Part shown: one piece after another, positions 2 through 11,255 of the stretch | Layout of the letters: each line of letters begins with the position of its first letter | Numbering within the stretch: the first letter of the stretch is position 1 | DNA from: a virus | DNA length: 56,221 bases | IMG/VR virus record: IMGVR_UViG_3300023184_000158 | Span: 1 to 56,221 of that record | Reading direction: 5' to 3' (one strand) | The notes under the pieces: model-generated | Seen by the model: the letters and a program-made list of their open reading frames with translations, nothing else | The model's database searches: none | What the model was told of the DNA's origin: nothing | Made by a program: the position numbers and the translations under genes

Positions 2-673
2 GTCACGACCAAGCGCGTGGCGTGGCGGTTCGTGGTGGCCGAACTCCTGTGGTTCCTGCGCGGGGAGACGAACATCCGCTCGTTGCAGCTGCAAGGCGTG
101 GATATCTGGGATGAATGGGCGGACGACGATGGTGAGCTCGGACCCGTCTACGGCAAGCAATGGCGGAGATGGGAGAACAATCATGACGGAACCATTGACC
201 AGATCGAACAGGTCATCCGGAATATCAAGGCTGATCCGCAAAGCCGCAGGCATGTGGTCAGCGCGTGGAACGTTGCGCAGCTCCATGAAATGGCACTCCC
301 TCCATGTCATCTTCTTTTTCAATTCTTTGTCTCGCAGTCTCGGTTTCTGAGCATCAAGGTCATCCAGCGCAGTGCGGATGTCTTCCTTGGCTTGCCTTTC
401 AATATCTCTTCCTATGCATTGTTGCTTGCAATTGTTGCAAAGCTGTGCGATCTTGAACCTGATTCTGTTATCATGTCACTAGGTGATGCACATGTGTACC
501 AGAATCACGTGTTGCAGATGAGGGAACAATTGTCGAGGATTCCACGGAAACGTCCTGCACTTGTCCTTCCGGAGTTCCATTCATTGGATCAGGTGTCTTT
601 GCTGGATCCAAAGGAGTTTGTGTTGAAGGAGTACGATCCATGGCCGAGTCTCAAGGCAAAGATCGCCGTGTAG
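2..673 (+). CDS. thyA: Thymidylate synthase, N-terminus cut by window edge
   Basis: This is folate-dependent thymidylate synthase, which methylates dUMP to dTMP using methylene-tetrahydrofolate in the cytoplasm. The visible 223 residues follow the classical ThyA order: VTTKR at the window edge, ELLWFLRGETN, IWDEWAD, GPVYGKQWR, then SRRHVVSAWN, the catalytic cysteine in ALPPCH, and the nucleotide-binding QRSADVFLGLPFN. The frame is open to base 2, and by comparison with the usual 264-residue enzyme about 45-50 residues lie outside the window. A GTG at 17 is an internal codon, not the start. The stop overlaps the next gene by 34 bases. A dihydrofolate reductase lies 5.5 kb downstream on the same strand, so the phage carries both halves of the dTMP cycle. 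The identification is very secure. Confidence 0.97.
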   Translation, partial: VTTKRVAWRFVVAELLWFLRGETNIRSLQLQGVDIWDEWADDDGELGPVYGKQWRRWENNHDGTIDQIEQVIRNIKADPQSRRHVVSAWNVAQLHEMALPPCHLLFQFFVSQSRFLSIKVIQRSADVFLGLPFNISSYALLLAIVAKLCDLEPDSVIMSLGDAHVYQNHVLQMREQLSRIPRKRPALVLPEFHSLDQVSLLDPKEFVLKEYDPWPSLKAKIAV

Positions 674-1704
674 CATGGTTCGAGAACTCCGTGCATCCGG
701 GGCTACGGAAAGCATTTGAGCCATTACGCGCACTGCCTACAACAAAACGTGGAATTACCGCTGACAGGATGGTTGCTTCGGGGCTTCCGTTGGATCGCGG
801 CGAATCAATGTCGGGACTGGAAAGCACTGTAACTCCAGTGGTTTATGGCAACAACAGTACACACCTGATGGAAGTGCGTCCGCAAGGGGGAGGGCAAAAT
901 GTCAATGCATTTCAGCATCATCTGGCGGCTTTGCATGCATTGCAAGATACCGGTGTCGTGCCAACATTGCACGGATATGATGTAACTTCTACTCGTGGAG
1001 CGGATCATCACATGATTCAGGAAAATCTCAGAGCTGATGAATTCAGGCCTTTTGGCGAAAAAATGCCTGATGGCCACATGGGAATCAGCACTGGGACACA
1101 AATGAGATTGGCAAAAATTGATCCAGCAACAGTGGTTCAGTCGGCAATATCCGGACTTGCCAAGATCCATGCAGCCGGATACTCGCATGGGGATTTACGC
1201 GGCAAACCTGATCACCTGTGGGTGAATCGCCAGGGGCAAGTAAAATTCATTGATTTTGGACAGGCCCGACATATTGCCGACAAGGAGGCGGGTGGAGCTG
1301 GACCCGTACAATCCCAAGCTTGGGATCGCGCGGGAATTCTGGATTCGCTTGGTAACGCGTTCAAAGGTCATCCGCAGCAAGCAGCGGTGACAGGAATGCT
1401 TGCCAAGGTGCAGGCACACATGGCTGCAAATCCCGCCGATTGGCACAGTCCCGAAAGAATGGCCACTCTTTTTCCGCCTGCTCCCCAAGCAGCGGCTCCA
1501 GCAGCGGCTCCAGCAGTGGATCCACAACGGCCTAAAGTACAGCGGCTCAGCCCCGCTTTGGCTCCTGCTCCAGCGGCTCCAGCAGCGGCTCCAGCAAATA
1601 CAACGAGACAGAACTTTTCACAAAATCCATATACAGGCAAAAGCATGAAAAAGAGCTGGTTCGAGAACTCCGTGCATCCGGCGCTACGGCAGGCAAAAGC
1701 ATGA
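640..1704 (+). CDS. Protein-kinase-like protein with tag peptide at both ends
   Basis: The 354-residue product has the core signature of the protein-kinase fold: an alpha-E-like KIHAAGYSHGDLR (residues about 176-188) with the HGD catalytic Asp, then QVKFIDFGQA with the metal-binding DFG. The catalytic loop is one residue longer than usual, and the expected Asn appears to be Asp (KPDHLWV). No clear beta-3 lysine is visible, so activity is uncertain. It may be an atypical kinase or a pseudokinase. A Pro/Ala-rich linker (about 285-325) follows. The peptide WFENSVHP occurs at residues 13-20 and again near the C-terminus (340-347), where it is encoded by a 49-bp repeat shared with the next gene. 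The start at 640 has AAGGAG eight bases upstream, inside thyA. The stop overlaps the next start (ATGA). The fold call is fairly confident, the substrate unknown. Confidence 0.8.
   Translation: MAESQGKDRRVAWFENSVHPGLRKAFEPLRALPTTKRGITADRMVASGLPLDRGESMSGLESTVTPVVYGNNSTHLMEVRPQGGGQNVNAFQHHLAALHALQDTGVVPTLHGYDVTSTRGADHHMIQENLRADEFRPFGEKMPDGHMGISTGTQMRLAKIDPATVVQSAISGLAKIHAAGYSHGDLRGKPDHLWVNRQGQVKFIDFGQARHIADKEAGGAGPVQSQAWDRAGILDSLGNAFKGHPQQAAVTGMLAKVQAHMAANPADWHSPERMATLFPPAPQAAAPAAAPAVDPQRPKVQRLSPALAPAPAAPAAAPANTTRQNFSQNPYTGKSMKKSWFENSVHPALRQAKA
676..700. repeat. 25-bp copy of tag-encoding DNA
   Basis: These 25 bases are identical to 1657-1681 and 1713-1737. They encode WFENSVHP plus flanking bases in all three places. 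Identity down to synonymous positions points to recent copying of the tag-coding DNA rather than protein convergence. Confidence 0.85.
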
Positions 1705-1738
1705 AAAAGAGCTGGTTCGAGAACTCCGTGCATCCGGC
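1634..1738. repeat. 49-bp perfect direct repeat at gene junction (1634-1682 and 1690-1738)
   Basis: Two identical 49-bp copies are offset by 56 bases. Copy 1 encodes the C-terminal tag of the kinase-like gene; copy 2 encodes the start and N-terminal tag of the next gene. The ATG at 1645 in copy 1 is in frame with the upstream gene, and the ATG at 1701 in copy 2 is the start of the downstream gene. Both lie at the same offset within the repeat. Removing one 56-bp unit would therefore fuse the two genes in frame. Confidence 0.9.
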
Positions 1739-4700
1739 ATTGCGACAAGAAGAATTTGAAAAAGGGATACTTGACTCCATCAGGTCGTGGGTCGGCGGAA
1801 AACCCGCGGCTCCTACGGCTCCGGCAAGTGTTGCGGCTCCAGAACCTGCGGCTCCTGCGGCTTCTGCAAGTGTTACGGCTCCAAAACTCCCAGGTGTTAC
1901 GGCTCCAAAACTCCCAGGTGTTACGGCTCTAGAACTCCCAGGTGTTACGGATCCAAAACCTGCGGCTCCTGCGGTTCCTGCAAGTGTTACGGCTCCAGAA
2001 CTCCCAGGTGTTACGCCGCCAAACGTGACAAGATCTGCGCTTAACAGTTCCCGTGATCGACAGCTGCAACTCCAGGATGATGGATCGCATCAGGCTGGCT
2101 TGAAATTGCTTGCAGATACCCGGAAAGAATTTGCACCGGACAAGCTTGTTCCACTCACGACAACGCAACAGTGGGCGGCATCCACAAATGGAAAAAGCAG
2201 GAACGAAGAGGATGACATCCTCAAAAAAGAGGTTCTTGCAATGCATGACCGACTTGCCCTGATGCATCGGTATTCCGGTGTTGATGGCGAAATTGATAGA
2301 AACGAGCTGGGTTCACTATTTGGAATGGCGCGAAAGGGCGGCATGCTCCCGGACGGATCACCCAGTACCGCCGGATATAAACCGACAACACGCACCCCTA
2401 CGGCATGGCAAAGCGGCACAGGTGAGATCATCCATCACGGATCGCCGAGGAATTTCCCGGGAGACCAGGTTGATCCGTCACGAATAGGAAGTGGTAGCGA
2501 TGCCGGTTTTGGACTATACGGTGTTTCAGGGTCGTTGAACAGACCGGCGAATCATTATGCGCACCAAGGAAATGGGAGGACGGCTTACGGCAGCACTGGA
2601 GAAGACACCACACCGACAGTGCACTCGTATGAAATCCCAAAAGACATGAAGGTGGCAAGACTCGACCAGCCACTGAGGCTTGACGATGATCAGCTGGGTC
2701 GGATCGCTGCGTATTTGACTGATGTCGCAAAATTACATGGAACAGAACTTAGGGATCGCGACGGCAACCCAATGCAAGGGTTTTCTGTAGAGGGGTTGAG
2801 GGCAACGCACCTTCCCGATACACCTTTTTCCGCCGAAGATGAGGAACGCACCTTTGATCAGAAGCTTTGGGGAAAACAATCAGGAAGATTTGTGCTTGAA
2901 GCCCTTGCGAAACAAGCGCTTGGGAATGCTTCGAAGGATCGCTCATCTGGCCATGTGCATGACAATCTCATCTCTAATATGTTGCAAGTTGCAGGTTTTG
3001 ATGCAAGCAGGTCCAAACACCAGGAAGACGATGGTGGTGATGTCCTGGCTGTCCATGCTGGGGGAATTCACAAGCTTATCCATCACATGTCTGAAGCTTC
3101 AGGTAGTGATACTCATGTGCAAGCAGACTCATCAAGTCCGTTCTTGCGGAAGCCACGTGACGGCATGACTCCGGAGATACAGTTTCCCGAAACACACGCA
3201 TTGATGGAAAGGGCAAAACTGGGAAGAAGCGATTGGGGCACGGAGCAGGCAAACGACCTTGTTGCTACTCTTGCGTCTTCTTTCCCGCAATTGGCAACTC
3301 CTGGCTTGCAAAACGATCCTCATAATGGAAATTCCGTCGTTGAGCACACGAAGGCTGGATTGTCTGCCATGAACACTGGCTGGGAAGGTGCACTGTACGG
3401 CATGAGTAATCCTGACGATAGAAGAATCGCACGTATTGCATACCTGTTCCATGATGTCGGAAAATCGAGCGACAGTGAGCATGAACATGAGCAGAGAGCT
3501 GCCGCGCGAGCAAGCGATGGCGCAGGCCCAGGTGAGCATCATCAGGATAAGTCATGGGATCTGCTCATGGCGCATCCGGACAAACCTCTTGAACAATTCG
3601 GATTGAGCGATGAGGAAACAGGATTGGTGCAGAAACTGATAAGCAAGCATCACGCATTCGGTGATGTTGTCCGGGCAGCCAGTTACGCAAGAAGTTCTCC
3701 GGACGACCCTCGGCGCCAAGCAGAGCTTGCCAAAGCAAAAGAACAATTCGGGGAGATTGCGGGAAACAAGCGTACGGCCCGGTTGCTGGCAAGCATGTGG
3801 CAAGCCGACGTGCAAGGAATACCGAAGTATAGAAACAACCCGGGTGAATTGCTGGGTGGATTTGAAGAGGGCGCAACCTTTGGCGACGTACGGAGACAAT
3901 TGCTCAGCGAAATGTACGTGGATCATCAAGGAGATCATCATCCCGAGAGATGGCAGAATGATGTAGTCAATTATCCCGAGGCGATCCACTCCTCGACAGC
4001 AGTCAAGTCATTTACAAGAAGAAGAAAGGGCATGTTGATGAAATCAGGAAAGGACCGCATTACCGCGCAAGTCCGGAAAGAGGAAGAGCGGCAAAAAAAG
4101 AAGATCCACAAGGAAGAACAAGCCGAGAAGCATGGGGTTGAACACGAGGAAGATCATGGCATCAGTGCGCACGAAGACAAGGTCATGAAACTGATTGCAC
4201 AAATGGGCAAGGCTATCAGGTCTCCCGGCAGTCCATATTCAAAACGAACCAGCCGCGCGGAGAATCGTGAAACGTTTGGCATGCTTGGCCAAGGGTCACG
4301 TCCCAAGACTGGTCCATATCAGCAACGGGATCTGGGTACTGAGCCAAAGATTGCAAGCATGAATGATGCTGATCCATTCACCAAATCCCAGAAGGAAGTG
4401 CTTGACCGCATGGACCGATGGAAGAAGAAGACCGAGGAGAAGCTCCTTGAAGAAGAGGACAAGCTTGTTGACCGCATCCACAGCGATCATACCGGACCCG
4501 GTGTGCCAAAGTTCGTCGGCAAGTACACCCATGGCGTGAAACAGCACGAGCAGCGCCTGAAGCGGGTCATCGACAAGTTGCGCGATGATGAGGAAGCTGA
4601 AGTCAGGGAAGAGATGGATGCACATGACTCCAGATGTTCCAAGTGCGGCAAGGATCCGTGTGTCTGTGGCAAAGTCAGGAAGTCGGAACTATCCAAAAAA

Positions 4701-5048
4701 AAACTTCAGAAATTTGACATTTCTGCCGTAGCCGAAGCAGTTCCGGATATTGTAGAAGGCTACGGTACACTAAAGGAGCTCAAGGATGGGGCACATCATC
4801 TTGCAAATGTGGTGAATGGAAAAATGAATGAAGTACAGCAAAATAATGATTACACAAATTGGGGAATCAATGTTACAAATCACCCAAACAGGGCACAACA
4901 ACAGCCTGTTGCGTTGCCAAGGGGATTTAACACTTTGAGACGTTTTACAAATGCCGTCGAGAAGGTTGCTGAACCTGGATCCATCAGCGGACCTGTTCGC
5001 AGGGTAGCCAACAAAGTTGTGCGTACTATCACAGGAAGGAGACCATAG
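1701..5048 (+). CDS. Large multidomain protein: tag, ADP-ribosyltransferase-like, HD hydrolase-like, Cys cluster
   Basis: A 1115-residue protein. Residues 1-16 are the tag peptide (MKKSWFENSVHPALRQ). A Pro/Ala linker with VTAPKLPG repeats follows (about 40-115). Residues about 240-340 carry IIHHGSPRNF and GSGSDAGFGLYG, resembling the HGS/GLY motifs of ADP-ribosyltransferase domains in phage polyvalent proteins. Residues about 545-700 form an HD domain: VEHT, LFHDVGK, then SKHH and WQADVQG, as in metal-dependent phosphohydrolases. Residues about 775-840 are highly charged and probably helical. CSKCGKDPCVC (about 977-987) looks like a small zinc site. There is no signal peptide. Multi-enzyme phage proteins of this type are known to be packaged and injected with DNA; that role is inferred here. 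The HD call is strong, the ADP-ribosyltransferase call moderate. Confidence 0.82.
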   Translation: MKKSWFENSVHPALRQEEFEKGILDSIRSWVGGKPAAPTAPASVAAPEPAAPAASASVTAPKLPGVTAPKLPGVTALELPGVTDPKPAAPAVPASVTAPELPGVTPPNVTRSALNSSRDRQLQLQDDGSHQAGLKLLADTRKEFAPDKLVPLTTTQQWAASTNGKSRNEEDDILKKEVLAMHDRLALMHRYSGVDGEIDRNELGSLFGMARKGGMLPDGSPSTAGYKPTTRTPTAWQSGTGEIIHHGSPRNFPGDQVDPSRIGSGSDAGFGLYGVSGSLNRPANHYAHQGNGRTAYGSTGEDTTPTVHSYEIPKDMKVARLDQPLRLDDDQLGRIAAYLTDVAKLHGTELRDRDGNPMQGFSVEGLRATHLPDTPFSAEDEERTFDQKLWGKQSGRFVLEALAKQALGNASKDRSSGHVHDNLISNMLQVAGFDASRSKHQEDDGGDVLAVHAGGIHKLIHHMSEASGSDTHVQADSSSPFLRKPRDGMTPEIQFPETHALMERAKLGRSDWGTEQANDLVATLASSFPQLATPGLQNDPHNGNSVVEHTKAGLSAMNTGWEGALYGMSNPDDRRIARIAYLFHDVGKSSDSEHEHEQRAAARASDGAGPGEHHQDKSWDLLMAHPDKPLEQFGLSDEETGLVQKLISKHHAFGDVVRAASYARSSPDDPRRQAELAKAKEQFGEIAGNKRTARLLASMWQADVQGIPKYRNNPGELLGGFEEGATFGDVRRQLLSEMYVDHQGDHHPERWQNDVVNYPEAIHSSTAVKSFTRRRKGMLMKSGKDRITAQVRKEEERQKKKIHKEEQAEKHGVEHEEDHGISAHEDKVMKLIAQMGKAIRSPGSPYSKRTSRAENRETFGMLGQGSRPKTGPYQQRDLGTEPKIASMNDADPFTKSQKEVLDRMDRWKKKTEEKLLEEEDKLVDRIHSDHTGPGVPKFVGKYTHGVKQHEQRLKRVIDKLRDDEEAEVREEMDAHDSRCSKCGKDPCVCGKVRKSELSKKKLQKFDISAVAEAVPDIVEGYGTLKELKDGAHHLANVVNGKMNEVQQNNDYTNWGINVTNHPNRAQQQPVALPRGFNTLRRFTNAVEKVAEPGSISGPVRRVANKVVRTITGRRP
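1872..2016. repeat. 24-bp tandem repeats encoding VTAPKLPG-type linker
   Basis: Units of about 24 bp (GTTACGGCTCCAAAACTCCC followed by AGGT, with small variants) are repeated head to tail, interrupted once by an Ala/Pro-coding segment. They encode a proline-rich linker between the N-terminal tag and the folded domains of the 1115-residue protein. Length variation between related phages would be expected. Confidence 0.8.
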
Positions 5049-5049
5049 C

Positions 5050-5451
5050 ATGTATGAATATCGTGTAACAAGACTGCTGGGCATTGTTGATGGGGATACC
5101 ATTGATGTGCAGATTGATCTGGGATTTGACGTGTCATTTACCAGCAGGGTACGCCTGAACGGGATTGACACCCCGGAGTCCCGCACCCTTGATCTTGTCG
5201 AGAAGAAACTTGGTCTTGACGCAAAGGATTGGCTCAAGCATCGTCTGGAAACGGCCAGGAAGATTGTCATCAGGACTGAGAAACCTGATTCAAGCGAGAA
5301 ATACGGGCGCATCCTCGCCACGCTCGTGGTGGATGATGAGCCGACCTCACTGAATGACCAGATGGTAAAATCTGGCTATGCGTGGGGGTATGATGGGGGA
5401 ACAAAACACAAGGATCTTGAGGTGCTCAAGAAGATACGAGGTTTGTCATGA
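5050..5451 (+). CDS. Staphylococcal-nuclease-like (thermonuclease) protein
   Basis: The 133-residue product matches the SNase fold, which cleaves DNA or RNA phosphodiester bonds with calcium. VDGDTIDV carries the first acidic residue. RVRLNGIDTPES carries the catalytic Arg, Asp and Glu set. EKYGRILATL carries the second catalytic Arg. All key residues seem intact. There is no signal peptide, so it would act inside the cell or from the virion. I chose the ATG at 5050, two bases after the upstream stop, with GGAAGGAG at 5034-5041; an in-frame start at 5017 would overlap the previous gene and adds an unlikely leader. The stop overlaps the next gene as ATGA. Possible roles are host DNA breakdown or nucleotide scavenging alongside the dTMP genes. 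Confidence 0.92.
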   Translation: MYEYRVTRLLGIVDGDTIDVQIDLGFDVSFTSRVRLNGIDTPESRTLDLVEKKLGLDAKDWLKHRLETARKIVIRTEKPDSSEKYGRILATLVVDDEPTSLNDQMVKSGYAWGYDGGTKHKDLEVLKKIRGLS

Positions 5452-6158
5452 GTGTGAATCCTTTTCCGTTGCAGTTGAGCTTGATCAAGGGGAAGAAATC
5501 GTCGTTGATCGATGATGATGACATGAACTTGCAAAAACGCGGCGGTGCTGCGGGTGCTGCCGGTGCTGCCGGTACTGTTGCCGGTGCTGCCGGTACTGTT
5601 GCCGGTGCTGCCGGTACTGCTGCCGGTGCTGCTGCCGGTGGCATCGGTGGCACGATACTAAACGCCGGGAAAGAGCTTCTGCTGGAAAAATTAAAGGAAG
5701 AAAAGGAAGGGCAATCAAAGGAAATTCCTCCGGTTGACCTGTCTACCGGTACAAGCGATAACAACGGCGTCAACGACAAGGATCCTCCAGTTGATCCTGA
5801 CGAACGCACCCTACAGCATCCGGTGGGCGTGGGTGACCGCATGAAGAATTCCTTCTTTGCGCATTCGCGGTATCCAAGGAATCCGGACTTCAGGAAATTC
5901 CTCCCGGCTGCGGCAATGGCAGCAGCTCCGGCAGTTATTGGAGCCATAGGCGAGGCCATGAAACCTCCTGCTGACATTCCAAAAATCGATCTTGGAAATG
6001 GCCAAGCATCTGCGGTCAAGTCGGGTGACGGGAAACCCCCGGGTGGTCCTCCGGGTGGTCCCCCGGGTGGTCCCCCGGGTGGTCCCCCGGGTGGTCCTCC
6101 GGGTGGTCCCCCGATGAAGCGCCGCGTGAAAACGAGATCGGGAACCGTCATCTATTAG
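5448..6158 (+). CDS. Gly/Ala- and Pro/Gly-repeat protein with internal tag peptide
   Basis: A 236-residue protein of no recognised enzyme family. Residues about 32-65 are Ala/Gly repeats (GAAGTVAGAAGTVAG). A charged helix LLLEKLKEEKEG follows. Residues about 132-150 contain KNSFFAHSRYPRNPDFRKF, a divergent copy of the WF/FF...P tag seen in its neighbours. An Ala-rich hydrophobic stretch AAAMAAAPAVIGAIG comes next, then at least six PPGG units (about 197-222) and a basic tail KRRVKTRS. Its start overlaps the nuclease stop by four bases with GAGG upstream. The composition resembles a virion-internal or DNA-binding protein rather than an enzyme, which is inference. It is a real gene because it is tightly packed between two identified genes. 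Confidence 0.75.
   Translation: MSVNPFPLQLSLIKGKKSSLIDDDDMNLQKRGGAAGAAGAAGTVAGAAGTVAGAAGTAAGAAAGGIGGTILNAGKELLLEKLKEEKEGQSKEIPPVDLSTGTSDNNGVNDKDPPVDPDERTLQHPVGVGDRMKNSFFAHSRYPRNPDFRKFLPAAAMAAAPAVIGAIGEAMKPPADIPKIDLGNGQASAVKSGDGKPPGGPPGGPPGGPPGGPPGGPPGGPPMKRRVKTRSGTVIY
5543..5650. repeat. GC-rich short tandem repeats encoding Gly/Ala
   Basis: A near-perfect unit of about 21 bp (CCGGTGCTGCCGGTACTGTT followed by G) repeats several times, mixed with shorter GCTGCCGGT units. It lies inside the 236-residue gene and encodes its Ala/Gly segment. Confidence 0.8.
6037..6112. repeat. 12-bp tandem repeats encoding PPGG
   Basis: Six or more copies of a 12-bp unit (CCGGGTGGTCCC, last base C or T) encode the PPGG tract near the C-terminus of the 236-residue protein. 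A related Pro/Gly tract with different DNA units is found at the end of the portal gene. Confidence 0.85.
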
Positions 6159-6165
6159 GATCATC

Positions 6166-6708
6166 ATGATTGAATTGATCGTCGCTTGCGCAAGGGATTC
6201 CTCCGGGAACATGATCATTGGCAACGAGAACCGCCTGCCGTGGCATGTCCCCGGAGATCTTCGCCGATTCAAGGACAAGACCATGGGTCACCCGATTGTC
6301 ATGGGCAGGAAAACGTATGAAAGCCTGCCCAGAAAACCACTTCCGGGACGCGAGAATATCATCCTTACCGGAAACAAGAACTATCTTGCAGTGCAATGTA
6401 CAATTGTTCATGATGCTGAAGCCATTATCGAGCGCTATGGAAAAACGTGGGAATCATGTTATATTATAGGCGGAGCACAACTATACGGATTGTTTCTCCC
6501 TCACGCACAACGAATACATCTTTCGTTGATTGACATTGAAACGGACGGCGACACTCACTTCCCCGTATCCTGGGAAGAGATGTGTGAGAAATTCTCATGG
6601 TTCTTTGTCGAGCAGCATGAAGGCCCGATCCGGTGGAGGGAATACATCTTTGAGCGAAGTCAACCATCCCGCACTGCTGCTGAGGTCGCAACTGAAGTCC
6701 GTCCTTGA
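6166..6708 (+). CDS. folA: Dihydrofolate reductase
   Basis: DHFR reduces dihydrofolate to tetrahydrofolate with NADPH, regenerating the cofactor consumed by thymidylate synthase. The 180 residues show the family order: NRLPWHVPGDLRRFK with the catalytic Asp, HPIVMGRKTYESL for NADPH contacts, PGRENIILT, YIIGGAQLYGLFL with the Gly-Gly pair, and IDIETDGDTHFP. It is slightly longer than the common 160-residue enzyme because of a C-terminal tail (about 165-180). AGGATC precedes the ATG. The 3' end overlaps the next gene by 59 bases. In phage T4 both DHFR and thymidylate synthase are also reported as virion baseplate parts, but nothing here shows that directly. The identification is very secure. 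Confidence 0.97.
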   Translation: MIELIVACARDSSGNMIIGNENRLPWHVPGDLRRFKDKTMGHPIVMGRKTYESLPRKPLPGRENIILTGNKNYLAVQCTIVHDAEAIIERYGKTWESCYIIGGAQLYGLFLPHAQRIHLSLIDIETDGDTHFPVSWEEMCEKFSWFFVEQHEGPIRWREYIFERSQPSRTAAEVATEVRP

Positions 6709-6979
6709 CGATCTGGCAATCCTGTCGCGTTTCCCGAAGGATTGTTCATGCCCGGATCACAATGGACCTCACGTCGTGATGCTGACTCGCAAGAAAGCCA
6801 TCGAGAATTATGCTCCCATGTTTGAAGCCTTGCGGAACATGGACATGAGTGAAGATGTGGCTGCGTTGATCAACCAGATCCTGGTGTTCTCCGAAGAAGA
6901 GCGGCATAGACAATCGATCTATATCAAGGATCTCAAGTTCTATGCCACTGATCTCTATCCGGAGAAGAAGAAAGTCTAG
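6650..6979 (+). CDS. Hypothetical protein with CxCxxH motif
   Basis: A 109-residue product (SEVNHPALLL... ending PEKKKV) of no recognised family. The likely start is TTG at 6650, inside the DHFR gene, because GGTGGAGGG lies nine bases upstream; an earlier frame start at 6530 gives an unnatural Ser/Arg-rich leader that shadows DHFR. The protein is mostly helical, with CSCPDHNGPH (about residues 34-43) offering possible metal ligands. It is the last plus-strand gene. Its TAG stop shares bases with the stop of the convergent minus-strand gene, leaving no space for a terminator. Confidence 0.7.
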   Translation: MSEVNHPALLLRSQLKSVLDDLAILSRFPKDCSCPDHNGPHVVMLTRKKAIENYAPMFEALRNMDMSEDVAALINQILVFSEEERHRQSIYIKDLKFYATDLYPEKKKV

Positions 6980-7719
6980 ACTCCCTTTGACTTGCGTAGC
7001 AGCATGTTCGGGACAATGCCCTTGCGCAGGTAATGATCGGCATGTCCAGCCTCATGTGGCAGGATAGTCGATTCGAAGAATTTCGGCTTTGCCAAAGGCT
7101 GCGGCACAAAAGTCTCCACGTACTCCGGCTCCTGTGTCATTTCGGACTTGAGCAATGAATAATTGTCCTGTCGCCCAACTTCTTCGGGATAGACTGCCGA
7201 GGTGAAGAAGGATTTGCGAACCCCGCTCATTCCGGCAAAGCTCGCGGCCTTAATGTCTGGCTTGGAAACCGGAACGATCTTCTTGGGACTTGCTCCGCCT
7301 ACGACTCTTTTTCTCTCCACTTTGAAATCTCGATTGACCGGAGCATAACCAGCAGGGAGTGGTCCGTCTTCCTCGGGACTCAACTCTTTCGGCTTGATCG
7401 CACTCCTGACTTTTTCAACCACCTTCTTTCCGCCCTCAAAAAGCTGTCTTCCTACTTTGAACGCACCTGTTGCCCCCAAGGCCGCAACAGGTGCGGCCAA
7501 ATGCGGATTTAGCAGCGCATTGCCAACAGTCTCCGCTCCTTGGCGCATTCCGTCGGCAATCTCAGGTAACCCTGCCTTTTCCGTGATCTTGCCCATCGAA
7601 CCCGGATCCCAATCCTTGTTGAGCCCTTCGCCTCTTTGGTTGCTCTTCCTGAGTTCCAGCACGTGATCGACAAAAATCGCATCGCTGAACCACGCTTTCT
7701 TGTTCTGCATCAAATTCAT
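6976..7719 (-). CDS. Triple-tag protein next to portal, with HEAGH sequence
   Basis: A 247-residue protein with at least three copies of the aromatic tag: KKAWFSDAIFVDHV at residues 7-20, RKSFFTSAVYPEEV near 170, and KPKFFESTILPHEAGHADHY near 212-231. The last copy runs into HEAGH, which fits the HExxH pattern of zinc metallopeptidases, but no surrounding peptidase fold is obvious and it may be chance. The middle holds an Ala/Gly-rich hydrophobic stretch (LAAPVAALGATGAFKVG) followed by a basic segment. It lies directly downstream of the portal gene, with AAGGAGA before its ATG. That position and the tags shared with the plus-strand cluster suggest a virion-internal or scaffold-like role, by inference. 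Confidence 0.75.
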   Translation of the reverse strand: MNLMQNKKAWFSDAIFVDHVLELRKSNQRGEGLNKDWDPGSMGKITEKAGLPEIADGMRQGAETVGNALLNPHLAAPVAALGATGAFKVGRQLFEGGKKVVEKVRSAIKPKELSPEEDGPLPAGYAPVNRDFKVERKRVVGGASPKKIVPVSKPDIKAASFAGMSGVRKSFFTSAVYPEEVGRQDNYSLLKSEMTQEPEYVETFVPQPLAKPKFFESTILPHEAGHADHYLRKGIVPNMLLRKSKGV

Positions 7720-7744: not shown

Positions 7745-9580
7745 TTACTTCTTTGGAGGGGGTGCGCCGCCCCCTTGTCCGGCTTGAGCCGCTATCTGCG
7801 CGAGAAGCTCGGGCGGGATTCCCCCCGGCGGCGCACCCGGAGGACCACCTGCACCCGGAGGGCCACCTGCACCGGGAGGCGCACCCGGAGGGCCACCTGC
7901 ACCGGGAGGGCCACCGGGAGGCGCCCCTTCTGCACCCGGAGGGCCACCGGGAGGCGCCCCTTCTGCACCGGGAGGCGCACCCGGAGGGCCACCTGCACCG
8001 GGAGGCGCCCCTTCTGCGCCCGGAGGACCACCACCAAAATCCCCCTGTCCATATTGTTGTGATTGCATTGCCATCATCTCCATCTGCTGCTTCATGTTGA
8101 CAATCTGCAACCAGATAGGATCGGCAATCGAATCCCCACCCTCTTCCTGAAGCAGTGGCGGAAGATTGCGACGGGCACGAATCTCGTTCTTGGTGCTCCA
8201 TTGTGATTCAAGCTGAAGGTTTGCCACGATGGTTCGCTCATCCTGCGGAGTGATTCCGTCAAAGATCAATGTAAGGTCGTCGTAATGAGGATGAATCAAC
8301 GACCTTGTCAACCAATCCGCATTGCTTTCCAGCAACGAGTACAATCCTTCCTCATTGATTGTTTCCGCAATTTCCCCAGTGGCATTTGCGCCACCAAACA
8401 ATGCTCCTTGGCTGGCTTTCTCCGAAAGGTTGAGTCGCGATGGATGCATGCCAAAGAATGCGCACTTGATTGATGCCATCAACCGAAAAAATTGCTCGAA
8501 CTGCATGTCGCTCGGGGTATTCGCAAGATCAAGCACTTGAGCTCGCATGTTTTCCGGTCCCGGCAAGACAGGCATCTTGCTCTTGGGAGTTCCGGCACCA
8601 CCTTGGCCAAGAATCTGACGCTCAAACGTGCTCAATCCTTCAGCGGAATAATCTCCCGAAAGCACAAGCATGCGCGACGGAAATCCGGGACGAAACAGAT
8701 CCTTGTTGAAGTTGAACATGTTCAGGAGCAAACTTGTTGCAGAAAGGGATTGCTCCAGCACGGATGTGCCGAAACCCCATCGGTTCAGTTCTCCAGAAGG
8801 GTTTGTCCATTCAACATCAATCTCTCCCTTGTTCCAGGCACCAACGATTTGTCCATCAACTTCCTGCACGTATTCGGCATCAGTGATGTCAATGGTGAGT
8901 CCAGTCTTCTGGGACCATTCCTCGCTCAGCATCATTCGCGCCACACGTTCATTGCTGATGCCACGTTTTGCCATCCACGGCATGATGACATAGAGAACCG
9001 GCAGGATTGTGTCACCCGGAAGGAGATAGAAATCGACAGGGCGACCTCGCTTGTCGCGTGAAACGACCATGGCCCGACGATCAATGACCAATTCTTCCTG
9101 CACGGAAACAGTCAGGAAATCCCTGAATGTCTTGTGATAGGTTGACACAGGGTTCTCAATCAGCTCTTCCATCTCCGCACATCTCCGGATGATGTCCGGA
9201 GTGCTTGAATCAAAGTTGGGATCGTCAAACCGGCGATGCACAACCCGCCAGCCACGTTGCTTTCCGGGGACAAAGATCTTTCTTGCCAGCCCCTTGACAT
9301 CTTCAATGCGTCTGGAGATGATGGCACGATCAATGAGACTTTCTCTGGCAACTGCCCTGAGCATTCCATATGGCGGAGTGTCAAGCGGCTTGCGCAACGT
9401 TCCCGGAGAAAAACTGACTTGAGCGACCGAAGGGCCGTAGTTTGAAAACCACTGTCCTCTTCGCCGCTCATTATCTTCCTTCATCTTGTCCATGTTCGCC
9501 TTGCTGAAGACTTCCTTGGGATCAAGTGCTGTTGATGTAGGATCAATAATGTTTCCAAAACCGTCTGCTTTTACTACCAT
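7745..9580 (-). CDS. Portal protein with Pro/Gly-rich C-terminal tail
   Basis: The 611-residue product is called as the portal, the dodecameric ring through which DNA enters and leaves the capsid. Position immediately after the large terminase, length, and sequence pattern support this: an N-terminal FSPGTLRKPLDTPPYGMLRA region, IDRAIISRRIEDVKGLAR, and the central WGFGTSVLEQSLSATSLLLNMFNFNKDLFRPG followed by an ASIKCAFFGMHPSRLNLSEKA segment typical of portal-family stems and crowns. Residues about 515-600 are an unusual PPGA/PPGG repeat tail, then a final PPPKK. AAGGAG precedes the ATG at 9580. No frameshift is visible. The repeats look like a flexible or collagen-like extension added to a normal portal. 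Confidence 0.88.
   Translation of the reverse strand: MVVKADGFGNIIDPTSTALDPKEVFSKANMDKMKEDNERRRGQWFSNYGPSVAQVSFSPGTLRKPLDTPPYGMLRAVARESLIDRAIISRRIEDVKGLARKIFVPGKQRGWRVVHRRFDDPNFDSSTPDIIRRCAEMEELIENPVSTYHKTFRDFLTVSVQEELVIDRRAMVVSRDKRGRPVDFYLLPGDTILPVLYVIMPWMAKRGISNERVARMMLSEEWSQKTGLTIDITDAEYVQEVDGQIVGAWNKGEIDVEWTNPSGELNRWGFGTSVLEQSLSATSLLLNMFNFNKDLFRPGFPSRMLVLSGDYSAEGLSTFERQILGQGGAGTPKSKMPVLPGPENMRAQVLDLANTPSDMQFEQFFRLMASIKCAFFGMHPSRLNLSEKASQGALFGGANATGEIAETINEEGLYSLLESNADWLTRSLIHPHYDDLTLIFDGITPQDERTIVANLQLESQWSTKNEIRARRNLPPLLQEEGGDSIADPIWLQIVNMKQQMEMMAMQSQQYGQGDFGGGPPGAEGAPPGAGGPPGAPPGAEGAPPGGPPGAEGAPPGGPPGAGGPPGAPPGAGGPPGAGGPPGAPPGGIPPELLAQIAAQAGQGGGAPPPKK
7820..8035. repeat. Pro/Gly/Ala-coding tandem repeats in portal gene
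   Basis: About 215 bp of short GC-rich units (variants of GGAGGCGCACCCGGAGGGCC on the plus strand) encode the PPGA, GAPPG and GAEG repeats of the portal C-terminus. Such a tract is prone to length change by slippage and to assembly error. Confidence 0.85.
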
Positions 9581-9593
9581 GTAGGTTATCTCC

Positions 9594-11255
9594 TTACACC
9601 ATCAGCACTTCGTCGAACATTTTTCTTGTGTTGCGCGAAACTTCCAATGACATTTCCAACGCATCGAGCATGTCGTCATTCTCGGATCTTGGGTACGTCA
9701 TGAGCTGATCGTAGAATTTGTGAAATTCCGGATGAACAATGACTGAACGGGTTTCATCCTCATTGAGCAATTCATCATCCTCGCCGGAAAGCTTCAGCAT
9801 GCGGATCTCGTCAGCTGTGCATCTGCGCAGGAAAATCTTTCCTTGTTCAAACAATGGAGACATGCCCTCGATGCGTATCTGTTTCTTCTTTTTTGCGTAA
9901 TGCTTGATCTCGCGAATGGGAAGCAATGATTTCTTCATGATCTGCTGTATGATGACATGTTGGAATCCGTTTCCTTCAATGCCATTCATCTGTATCGGAT
10001 ATGATTGATTCTGCTGGATAACCCTGTTCAATTGATTTGCCACATCCATTCGCTGATTCACTATATCAAAAACGACAATATCCTGATCGGCTGTCTTGCC
10101 AATCATGACAAGAGAGAAGAAGTCTGCAGCGTCATCCTTGCCAACGGTCCAGTCAACGCCGGTGAAGAATGTCAATGCCTTTCCGCGAAAAAACCATCGC
10201 TTGCTTGATGGCCGATATCCGAGATCGTTGGCGTCATACCATTGTATCCACGAACTCCTGAATGTCCGCGAGGTATCATCACGCGGATCGTTCATGTACT
10301 CCTTCTGAAATGCCAGGACATTCTTGGCGCGGATTGCACGTAATCGCTCAAGGGAGAATCGTTCAGGCCATAATGGAGCCTGATGCTTGTTGCCTTCCTC
10401 ATCCTGCTTGGTAATGATTGCCTGATATCTTCTTGTAACGTACAGATCAGGACGGGCAAGCATCTGGTTCAAGAGCGAACCATAATGAAGCACCGTCCCG
10501 ACAAGAATGATCTGTCCGACTGGAGGAGGTTCAATCATTGGTTCCACTGCCGAGTCCCACCATGAGGCGAGCTTCTGCCTCTGTATTGATGTGTCAACCA
10601 GCTCGTCATTCTCAAGATCGTCAGCAATGACCAAGTCAGGTCTCCTGAATCCAAACCTGAGACCTCGCAACGGGTTGTTTGCCATTCGGGCAAGGATTTT
10701 TGCGCGATCCTCAAGTTCATTGCCCCATTTGTTGTTGATCTTGTCCCACTTGCGGAATCCAATGACAAACTCCTCGTCGGTCCACTTTTCCTTCTCTCCA
10801 CGAGCTGCGCCGTCAAAGTTGTCCCAATCACGGCCAAGGACGATGCCCCAGTCGTTGACAAGTTTGTCGTTCATCTCGAACTCTTCCTTGATGTTCCGGG
10901 AATGAGATGTAGAGATACGCGCAATATCGGAAATAATGACCACAAAGAATTTTCTTTGTGTCACAAGTGACCAGATGACATACAGAAATGTAATCAATGT
11001 TGACTTGCTATGATTTCTTGGAGCGGCAATGACAAGGGTATTCAAGTTCTCCTTGCCTTGCCATTCCTCTTCATTCTTGTGCGTGGCAAGATCAATGATG
11101 TCCTTGTGGAAATCCGGAGACGCTTGGAACCAGTATTTGGGGAAATAGATGCGTCCAAACTCGAATGGATCATCAATGGTGCGCTGGATACGCCACTTTC
11201 TCAAGCCATCTTCAAGCAGGAGAGGTGCCGGGGCCTCCAGAACGGAACTTGTCAT
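9594..11255 (-). CDS. terL: Terminase large subunit
   Basis: TerL is the packaging motor: an N-terminal ATPase drives DNA into the prohead and a C-terminal RNase-H-like nuclease cuts the concatemer. The 553 residues show a Walker A variant APRNHSKST (about 76-84; most relatives have PRGxxKST), a Walker B PDLVIADDLEND (about 202-213) and a coupling motif ILVGTVLHYG. The nuclease part carries FTGVDWTVGKDD (about 365) and SENDDMLDALEMS near residue 525, the first and last catalytic aspartates. The start overlaps the small subunit gene by four bases (ATGA). It is followed by the portal gene after 13 bases. The family assignment is very secure. The Asn and Ser in the P-loop are unusual but the Lys and Ser/Thr remain. 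Confidence 0.96.
   Translation of the reverse strand: MTSSVLEAPAPLLLEDGLRKWRIQRTIDDPFEFGRIYFPKYWFQASPDFHKDIIDLATHKNEEEWQGKENLNTLVIAAPRNHSKSTLITFLYVIWSLVTQRKFFVVIISDIARISTSHSRNIKEEFEMNDKLVNDWGIVLGRDWDNFDGAARGEKEKWTDEEFVIGFRKWDKINNKWGNELEDRAKILARMANNPLRGLRFGFRRPDLVIADDLENDELVDTSIQRQKLASWWDSAVEPMIEPPPVGQIILVGTVLHYGSLLNQMLARPDLYVTRRYQAIITKQDEEGNKHQAPLWPERFSLERLRAIRAKNVLAFQKEYMNDPRDDTSRTFRSSWIQWYDANDLGYRPSSKRWFFRGKALTFFTGVDWTVGKDDAADFFSLVMIGKTADQDIVVFDIVNQRMDVANQLNRVIQQNQSYPIQMNGIEGNGFQHVIIQQIMKKSLLPIREIKHYAKKKKQIRIEGMSPLFEQGKIFLRRCTADEIRMLKLSGEDDELLNEDETRSVIVHPEFHKFYDQLMTYPRSENDDMLDALEMSLEVSRNTRKMFDEVLMV

Follow-up and report, generated by a model that had tools for sequence, protein, structure and literature searches.

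Two exchangeable terminal peptides beside a predicted head-protease site: candidate prohead-loading tags in a Herelleviridae-like phage lineage

Tagged proteins in the window

The DNA analyzed here is IMG/VR virus record IMGVR_UViG_3300023184_000158, a stretch of 56,221 bases without neighboring sequence (the window), and its subject is a short aromatic peptide, tag A (W/F-F-x-x-S/A/T-V/I-H/Y/W-P), that recurs in four of its proteins. A preliminary description had listed seven copies and proposed that they direct proteins to the capsid as in T4. All seven segments were confirmed, and the earlier pattern, sought in all six frames of the 56 kb, returned these seven plus two matches in short junk frames. 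Proline comes after the tag in six of the seven copies, broadly as described, the first tag of the 247-amino-acid (aa) protein having V instead. A second tag on the 236-aa protein, NPFPLQLSL, was absent from the earlier list and belongs to another form, tag B (P-F-P-F/L-x-I/L). The features are as follows; arrows mark predicted cuts.

640..1704 (+), putative kinase-like cargo protein of 354 aa with a tag at each end (open reading frame [ORF]; matches to Pfam Pkinase at E 8e-5 and to PHROG Ser/Thr kinase at 4e-6)
653..708 (+), 56-bp DNA repeat, copy 1 (70%)
676..699 (+), tag A WFENSVHP, kinase-like N terminus, residues 13-20, kept in the G001 and G008 homologues
709..714 (+), predicted head-protease site LRK↓AFE (K24↓A25) of the kinase-like protein, giving a predicted propeptide of residues 1-24
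1634..1689 (+), 56-bp DNA repeat, copy 2
1651..1656 (+), predicted site MKK↓S directly before the kinase-like C-terminal tag
1657..1680 (+), tag A WFENSVHP, kinase-like C terminus, residues 340-347; the G001 homologue is C-terminally tagged too
1690..1745 (+), 56-bp DNA repeat, copy 3 (93%), which follows copy 2 as a tandem
1701..5048 (+), putative HD-domain cargo protein, 1115 aa (ORF; HD, 22.9 bits), with charged helical C-terminal modules common to relatives by homology
1713..1736 (+), tag A WFENSVHP, N terminus of the 1115-aa protein, residue 5
5448..6158 (+), 236-aa low-complexity protein with both tag forms (ORF); its L018 counterpart has the same two tags
5457..5483 (+), tag B NPFPLQLSL, N terminus of the 236-aa protein, residues 4-12
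5853..5876 (+), tag A FFAHSRYP, 236-aa protein, residues 136-143
6976..7719 (-), multi-tag 247-aa protein, directly downstream of the portal gene (ORF)
7669..7692 (-), tag A WFSDAIFV, 247-aa protein, residues 10-17
7642..7647 (-), predicted site LRK↓SNQ (K25↓S26), 247-aa protein
7186..7209 (-), tag A FFTSAVYP, 247-aa protein, residues 171-178, with VRK↓S before it
7144..7149 (-), predicted site LLK↓SEM (K191↓S192) after the second tag, 247-aa protein
7057..7080 (-), tag A FFESTILP, 247-aa protein, residues 214-221

The 56-bp repeat links both tags of the kinase-like protein and the N-terminal tag of the 1115-aa protein. These three repeat-borne copies are not independent, so that the window holds about five independent tag forms; the remaining four tags are encoded by different codons. 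A one-operon DNA repeat was rejected as the full explanation because it holds for three copies only. The tag units of the 247-aa protein are 78-81% identical to those of L018, compared with 40% over the remainder of the protein.

The original labels for the tagged proteins fared unevenly. The kinase-like label is weakly supported by the two matches listed, and the HD label is supported by its score, whereas a search of Pfam, NCBIfam, and PDB sequences gave nothing for the ADP-ribosyltransferase label of the 1115-aa protein, which was given up. The 1115-aa protein also had no match in named phages. An AlphaFold model of the kinase-like protein had a mean predicted local distance difference test (pLDDT) score of 44 and was set aside. 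On the opposite strand, an ORF of 241 aa (5426-6151, -) overlaps the 236-aa gene; the plus-strand frame is favored as the gene because its tags are common to the L018 counterpart. A charged helical repeat module (HTGPGVPKFV-KY-HG--QH) lies at residues ~890-990 of the 1701-5048 product and in proteins of G002 (447 aa), G004 (347 aa), and G007 (207 aa).

Tags A and B in related phages

Relatives were found by searching IMG/VR with terminase, portal, and capsid proteins, which yielded contigs of up to 184 kb. The two window genes concerned are as follows.

7745..9580 (-), portal protein of Herelleviridae type (Pfam Phage_portal, 5e-7; ~25% identity)
9594..11255 (-), large terminase (context), which served as a query to find relatives

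In these relatives, tag A sits at the extreme N or C terminus of otherwise unrelated proteins. In a hold-out test, a profile built from the window only gave six matches in relatives above every reversed-sequence decoy, all at most 12 residues from a terminus. In a second hold-out, the profile was fixed on the first batch and applied to eleven new contigs, where 3/3 clear tag A matches were N-terminal and were followed by LRK↓AGE, LLK↓AEK, or LWK↓AGE; two lower-scoring matches (13.9 and 12.8), though also above the decoys, did not look like terminal tags, and tag B matches were mostly C-terminal. Recurrence beyond chance, which the preliminary description had proposed to check, is borne out by these hold-out tests on relatives. 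A degenerate DNA pattern for WFxxS[I/V]HPxLRK, which covers the tryptophan form only, occurred among 2.9 million viral contigs in this group alone, and the tag was accordingly rejected as a general phage motif.

Examples in relatives include MPWFDKSIHPDFRKSE on a 1529-aa protein, MPSSSWFSLSIHPALRKAG on a kinase-like protein, MTWFSVSIHPALRKSG on a metallophosphatase, and MKTGFFSHAVWPLTKSEE on a DUF6321 protein, and C-terminal examples are KKSWFSLSVLGKR and KKSWFTFSIHSALQQRWNKRI. DUF6321 is a small domain known chiefly from cyanophages and pelagiphages; here it lies inside large tagged proteins (L036:6018-8480 and L020:13798-16410).

Tag B occurs at the start or end of many proteins, such as MSVNPFPLQLSLIK (236-aa protein of the window), MSQPFPLQLKYIK, MTFSPFPFRLEAF, and MRKIDRNPFPFAIWP, with VKAFAPTPFPFRIGAF as a C-terminal case, and a giant late protein ends in PFPFRIGAF. 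Homologous proteins may bear either form: the metallophosphatase has tag A in G008 and tag B in G002 and G003 and is untagged in G007, with homology among these proteins beginning at or after the tag. Likewise, proteins with the charged helical modules carry tag A in the window (1115 aa) and G001 (1529 aa) and tag B in G002 (447 aa) and G004 (347 aa). From one homologue to another, then, the tag can be detached or exchanged for the other form. In an AlphaFold model of the G008 phosphatase, residues 1-17 have pLDDT <50 and the fold starts at about residue 20, so that the tag lies outside the predicted fold.

Two other recurrent terminal elements, weaker candidate tag classes, were also seen. 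An amphipathic LxxRMxG...LxKA/S helix, e.g., LMNRMYGYGVAQSLKKIE and GRLLGMPQSEVKQKIEKS, is found on unrelated proteins of G001 (870, 478, 312, and 1280 aa), G002 (1623 aa), G007 (532 aa), and G004 (819 aa). A possible further N-terminal tag, LxFKKS (MLIFKKS, MLFFKKS, and MVYLLFKKSE), occurs on G001 proteins of 226, 2566, 849, and 729 aa. Two G007 proteins of unequal length (86039-87547 and 87576-89864) have a common C terminus, KRKPKGSKF-GSEFMARSF-WGMNV, which is possibly that genome's own tag.

The window itself also contains a long run of minus-strand genes, including tail genes, as well as DHFR, thymidylate synthase, and a nuclease; the thymidylate synthase, nuclease, and tail genes were named by eye from the sequence.

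A predicted head-protease site beside the tags

The sequence hydrophobic-x-K-[S/A] lies within 16 residues after 18 of 22 N-terminal tags, compared with 44 of 404 background N termini (binomial 2e-14, the cases not all being independent). Examples are LRK↓SED, FRK↓SED, LTK↓SEE, LIK↓AEA, and LQK↓SDP, and the site precedes several internal and C-terminal tags (MKK↓SWFENSVHP, VKK↓SWFTFSIH, and VRK↓SFFTSAVYP). The motif (K/R)x(S/A), with which the preliminary description had opened its pattern, is better read for the most part as the putative cleavage site that stands ahead of internal and C-terminal tags, WFxxSVHP being the tag itself.

The motif, first spotted by eye during inspection of the tags, was put to the test on proteins from which it was not derived. 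In G001, a head maturation protease was identified outside the window fragment (phrog_1028, E 6.6e-26; PHROGs), with Herelleviridae relatives; the major head protein of the lineage (PHROG match, 3.2e-38) and the tail sheath were likewise identified by PHROGs, and a scaffold candidate is located between the protease and capsid genes. All 400 dipeptides were scanned, with a hydrophobic residue at P3, for observed versus expected counts. KS and KA were the top two dipeptides in two scaffolds (11 versus 0.93 and 11 versus 1.38), and KS was the top dipeptide in two proteases (8 versus 0.89) and in the tagged proteins (41 versus 11.1); in 364 other proteins, KS fell outside the top ten, and tail proteins showed no enrichment of the motif. 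Among the 177 proteins of the eleven new contigs, nine scaffolds held ranks 1-9 for the motif, with the proteases next, and the capsid proteins there have NKSFDM near residue 20. We infer that the motif is the head-protease site in this lineage.

The same enrichment extends to SPO1 (FJ230960), in which the motif was counted 11 times versus 0.67 expected in the scaffold and 5 versus 1.2 in the protease but was not enriched in the portal, sheath, or tape measure protein.

L072:5928-6662, SPO1 scaffold gp3.3
L072:5158-5928, SPO1 protease gp3.2

The strong scaffold and moderate protease enrichment suggests that K↓S is the head-protease specificity of Herelleviridae. In agreement with the motif, the mature capsid protein in the record of Listeria phage A511 is annotated from residue 24, at ALK↓SFTTGYG. 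The N terminus of the window portal also holds two such sites, VVK↓A and FSK↓A, the second kept as K↓S in G001 and G002, and from these the portal may be processed too.

Proposed role and likeness to known systems

Tags A and B probably bring cargo into proheads and are afterward removed by cleavage; we read them in this way because the T4 internal proteins are built alike, with a shared leader joined to a head-protease site. Tag A and the exchangeable tag B, at the N terminus, at the C terminus, or inside the cargo, would bind something within the assembling prohead, with the scaffold, the portal, or the inner capsid face as candidate receptors. The head maturation protease would cut at hydrophobic-x-K↓[S/A] beside most tags, N-terminal tags leaving as propeptides of roughly 14 to 24 residues in most cases, and what is left of the cargo (the kinase-like, HD, metallophosphatase, and DUF6321 proteins among others) would ride in its mature form inside the head and leave together with the DNA; presence in the virion and injection are what we infer from this arrangement. 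The T4-like role originally proposed thus gains support from the site adjacency, the scaffold and protease enrichment, the K↓S start of the A511 capsid protein, the tag exchange, and the position of the tag outside the predicted fold. More tentatively, the two interchangeable docking peptides, usable at any protein position and coupled to a K↓[S/A] site, might form a modular address system in which the multi-tag protein beside the portal is a cargo adaptor that also gets cut up and a tag-plus-site cassette moves between genes, listing the head-packaged proteins from sequence. That the 247-aa protein is such an adaptor, itself cut into pieces, is possible.

Several points weigh against loading and removal. 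Four of the 22 N-terminal tags, including those of the window 1115-aa and 236-aa proteins, have no site. When termini were masked, KS in the tagged proteins fell to 22 versus 9.3 and to second rank, which places most of the tagged-protein signal at the tags. The A511 scaffold was not enriched under the P3 rule and was dropped as a second proof of the motif. The lineage's scaffold was identified by gene position between the protease and capsid genes, a simple ORF caller supplied the gene starts, and the tagged proteins are not all mutually independent. The window fragment is without capsid and protease genes, the head module being read from relatives, and the lineage is an uncultured one.

Three alternatives retain a small share of plausibility. 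The tight coupling of tag and K↓[S/A] site would also be expected if the aromatic peptide were only an exosite for the head protease, with cargo entering the prohead by another route; this is unlikely, as the aromatic tag is missing next to the many K↓[S/A] sites that the scaffold, protease, and capsid protein contain, and certain C-terminal tags (KWFEDTVLY, at the end of the G001 99-aa protein, is one) stand without an adjoining site. Sorting to an intracellular place (a replication compartment, membrane, or condensate) with no role in the virion seems similarly improbable: short terminal motifs on unrelated proteins are typical of such sorting too, and several cargo genes adjoin replication and nucleotide genes, yet this would leave unexplained both the adjacent head-protease motif and the position of the multi-tag gene directly downstream of the portal in the terminase-portal run. 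We give equally little weight to the idea that the tag, rather than being a head-interior signal, docks cargo on part of the tail or portal so that it can be ejected, since the nearby site implies exposure to the head protease and neither the tail proteins nor the SPO1 sheath and tape measure are enriched for the motif, even though the multi-tag gene adjoins the portal and a tag B copy terminates the giant late protein. A functionless spreading repeat or chance, to which the 56-bp repeat behind three window copies might point, is scarcely credible given that other copies use different codons, that the same peptide stands at protein ends in relatives above decoys in the hold-out tests, and that the tag units are more conserved than their host protein.

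If the tags do load cargo and are cut off by the head protease, a tag plus a predicted site would allow the proteins packaged by uncultured phages of this lineage to be read off their genomes and would point to new injected effectors; how large phages select the effectors that they carry and inject has been worked out at the sequence level in very few cases (the T4 internal proteins and P1 DarB). The testable specificity hydrophobic-x-K↓[S/A] appears to reach SPO1, a classical laboratory phage, and a movable, self-removing capsid tag, for which MTWFSVSIHPALRKSG and MSQPFPLQLKYIKDVEPLIKAKK are candidates, would be useful for loading proteins into phage heads.

Among known systems, encapsulin cargo-loading peptides are short terminal peptides that sort cargo into an HK97-fold shell; unlike what is predicted for the tags here, they are not known to be removed by a protease, and they differ in sequence. 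Head and ejected proteins of the giant phages SPN3US/phiKZ lose N-terminal propeptides to the prohead protease, and the portions of the SPN3US account drawn on here give short propeptides of 20 and 24 residues and a preference for Ser at P1' (PMC10052503). In contrast to the present tags, the protease motif there is A-x-E, and most propeptides span 111-254 residues and are not, in those portions, described as one shared tag (PMC10052503). For P1 DarB, a large antirestriction protein, a 30-residue N-terminal segment is enough for a reporter to be taken up into P1 heads (PMC9024508). Unlike the tags here, DarB is described, in the passages of that source used, with neither a motif that recurs across many cargo proteins nor a protease site nearby (PMC9024508); this comparison was made by description.

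Polyvalent proteins of phages and conjugative elements are large effectors with several domains, for which packaging and injection are predicted, and the sections of their description consulted contain no common short terminal targeting peptide (PMC5512222). The relatives carry NADAR, UvrD-helicase, DprA, and HD domains on large proteins. In the window, HD was found in the 1115-aa protein and the kinase-like match in the 354-aa protein; an LPD domain was unmatched. Very large late proteins are encoded upstream of the capsid module in G001 (L025, 115129-122829 and 107471-114139); UvrD helicase lies on the G001 2566-aa protein, DprA on a 2222-aa late protein, and NADAR on an 849-aa protein (L027:6595-9144). 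These three proteins are likely injected polyvalent-type effectors.

The T4 internal proteins (ipI, ipII, and ipIII, cleaved by gp21) offer the likeness in anatomy, one short N-terminal leader on unrelated proteins followed by a protease site. T4 Ip1-3 share no homology except the packaging leader (PMC12373910), which, in the parts of these sources used, directs capsid packaging (PMC12373910, PMC9024508) and is able to carry foreign proteins (PMC9024508). The sequences themselves differ: the best ungapped score between the T4 leader family (MKT-Y/F-x-E-F) and the tag was low, with no motif in common, and the gp21 consensus [L/I]-x-E, represented by the IAE↓A that ends the ipII and ipIII leaders, was not found after the tag, where hydrophobic-x-K↓[S/A] stands instead. 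The head proteins of the tagged phages are Herelleviridae-like and not T4-like, and, unlike the T4 leader, the tag occurs C-terminally and internally as well, in two exchangeable forms.

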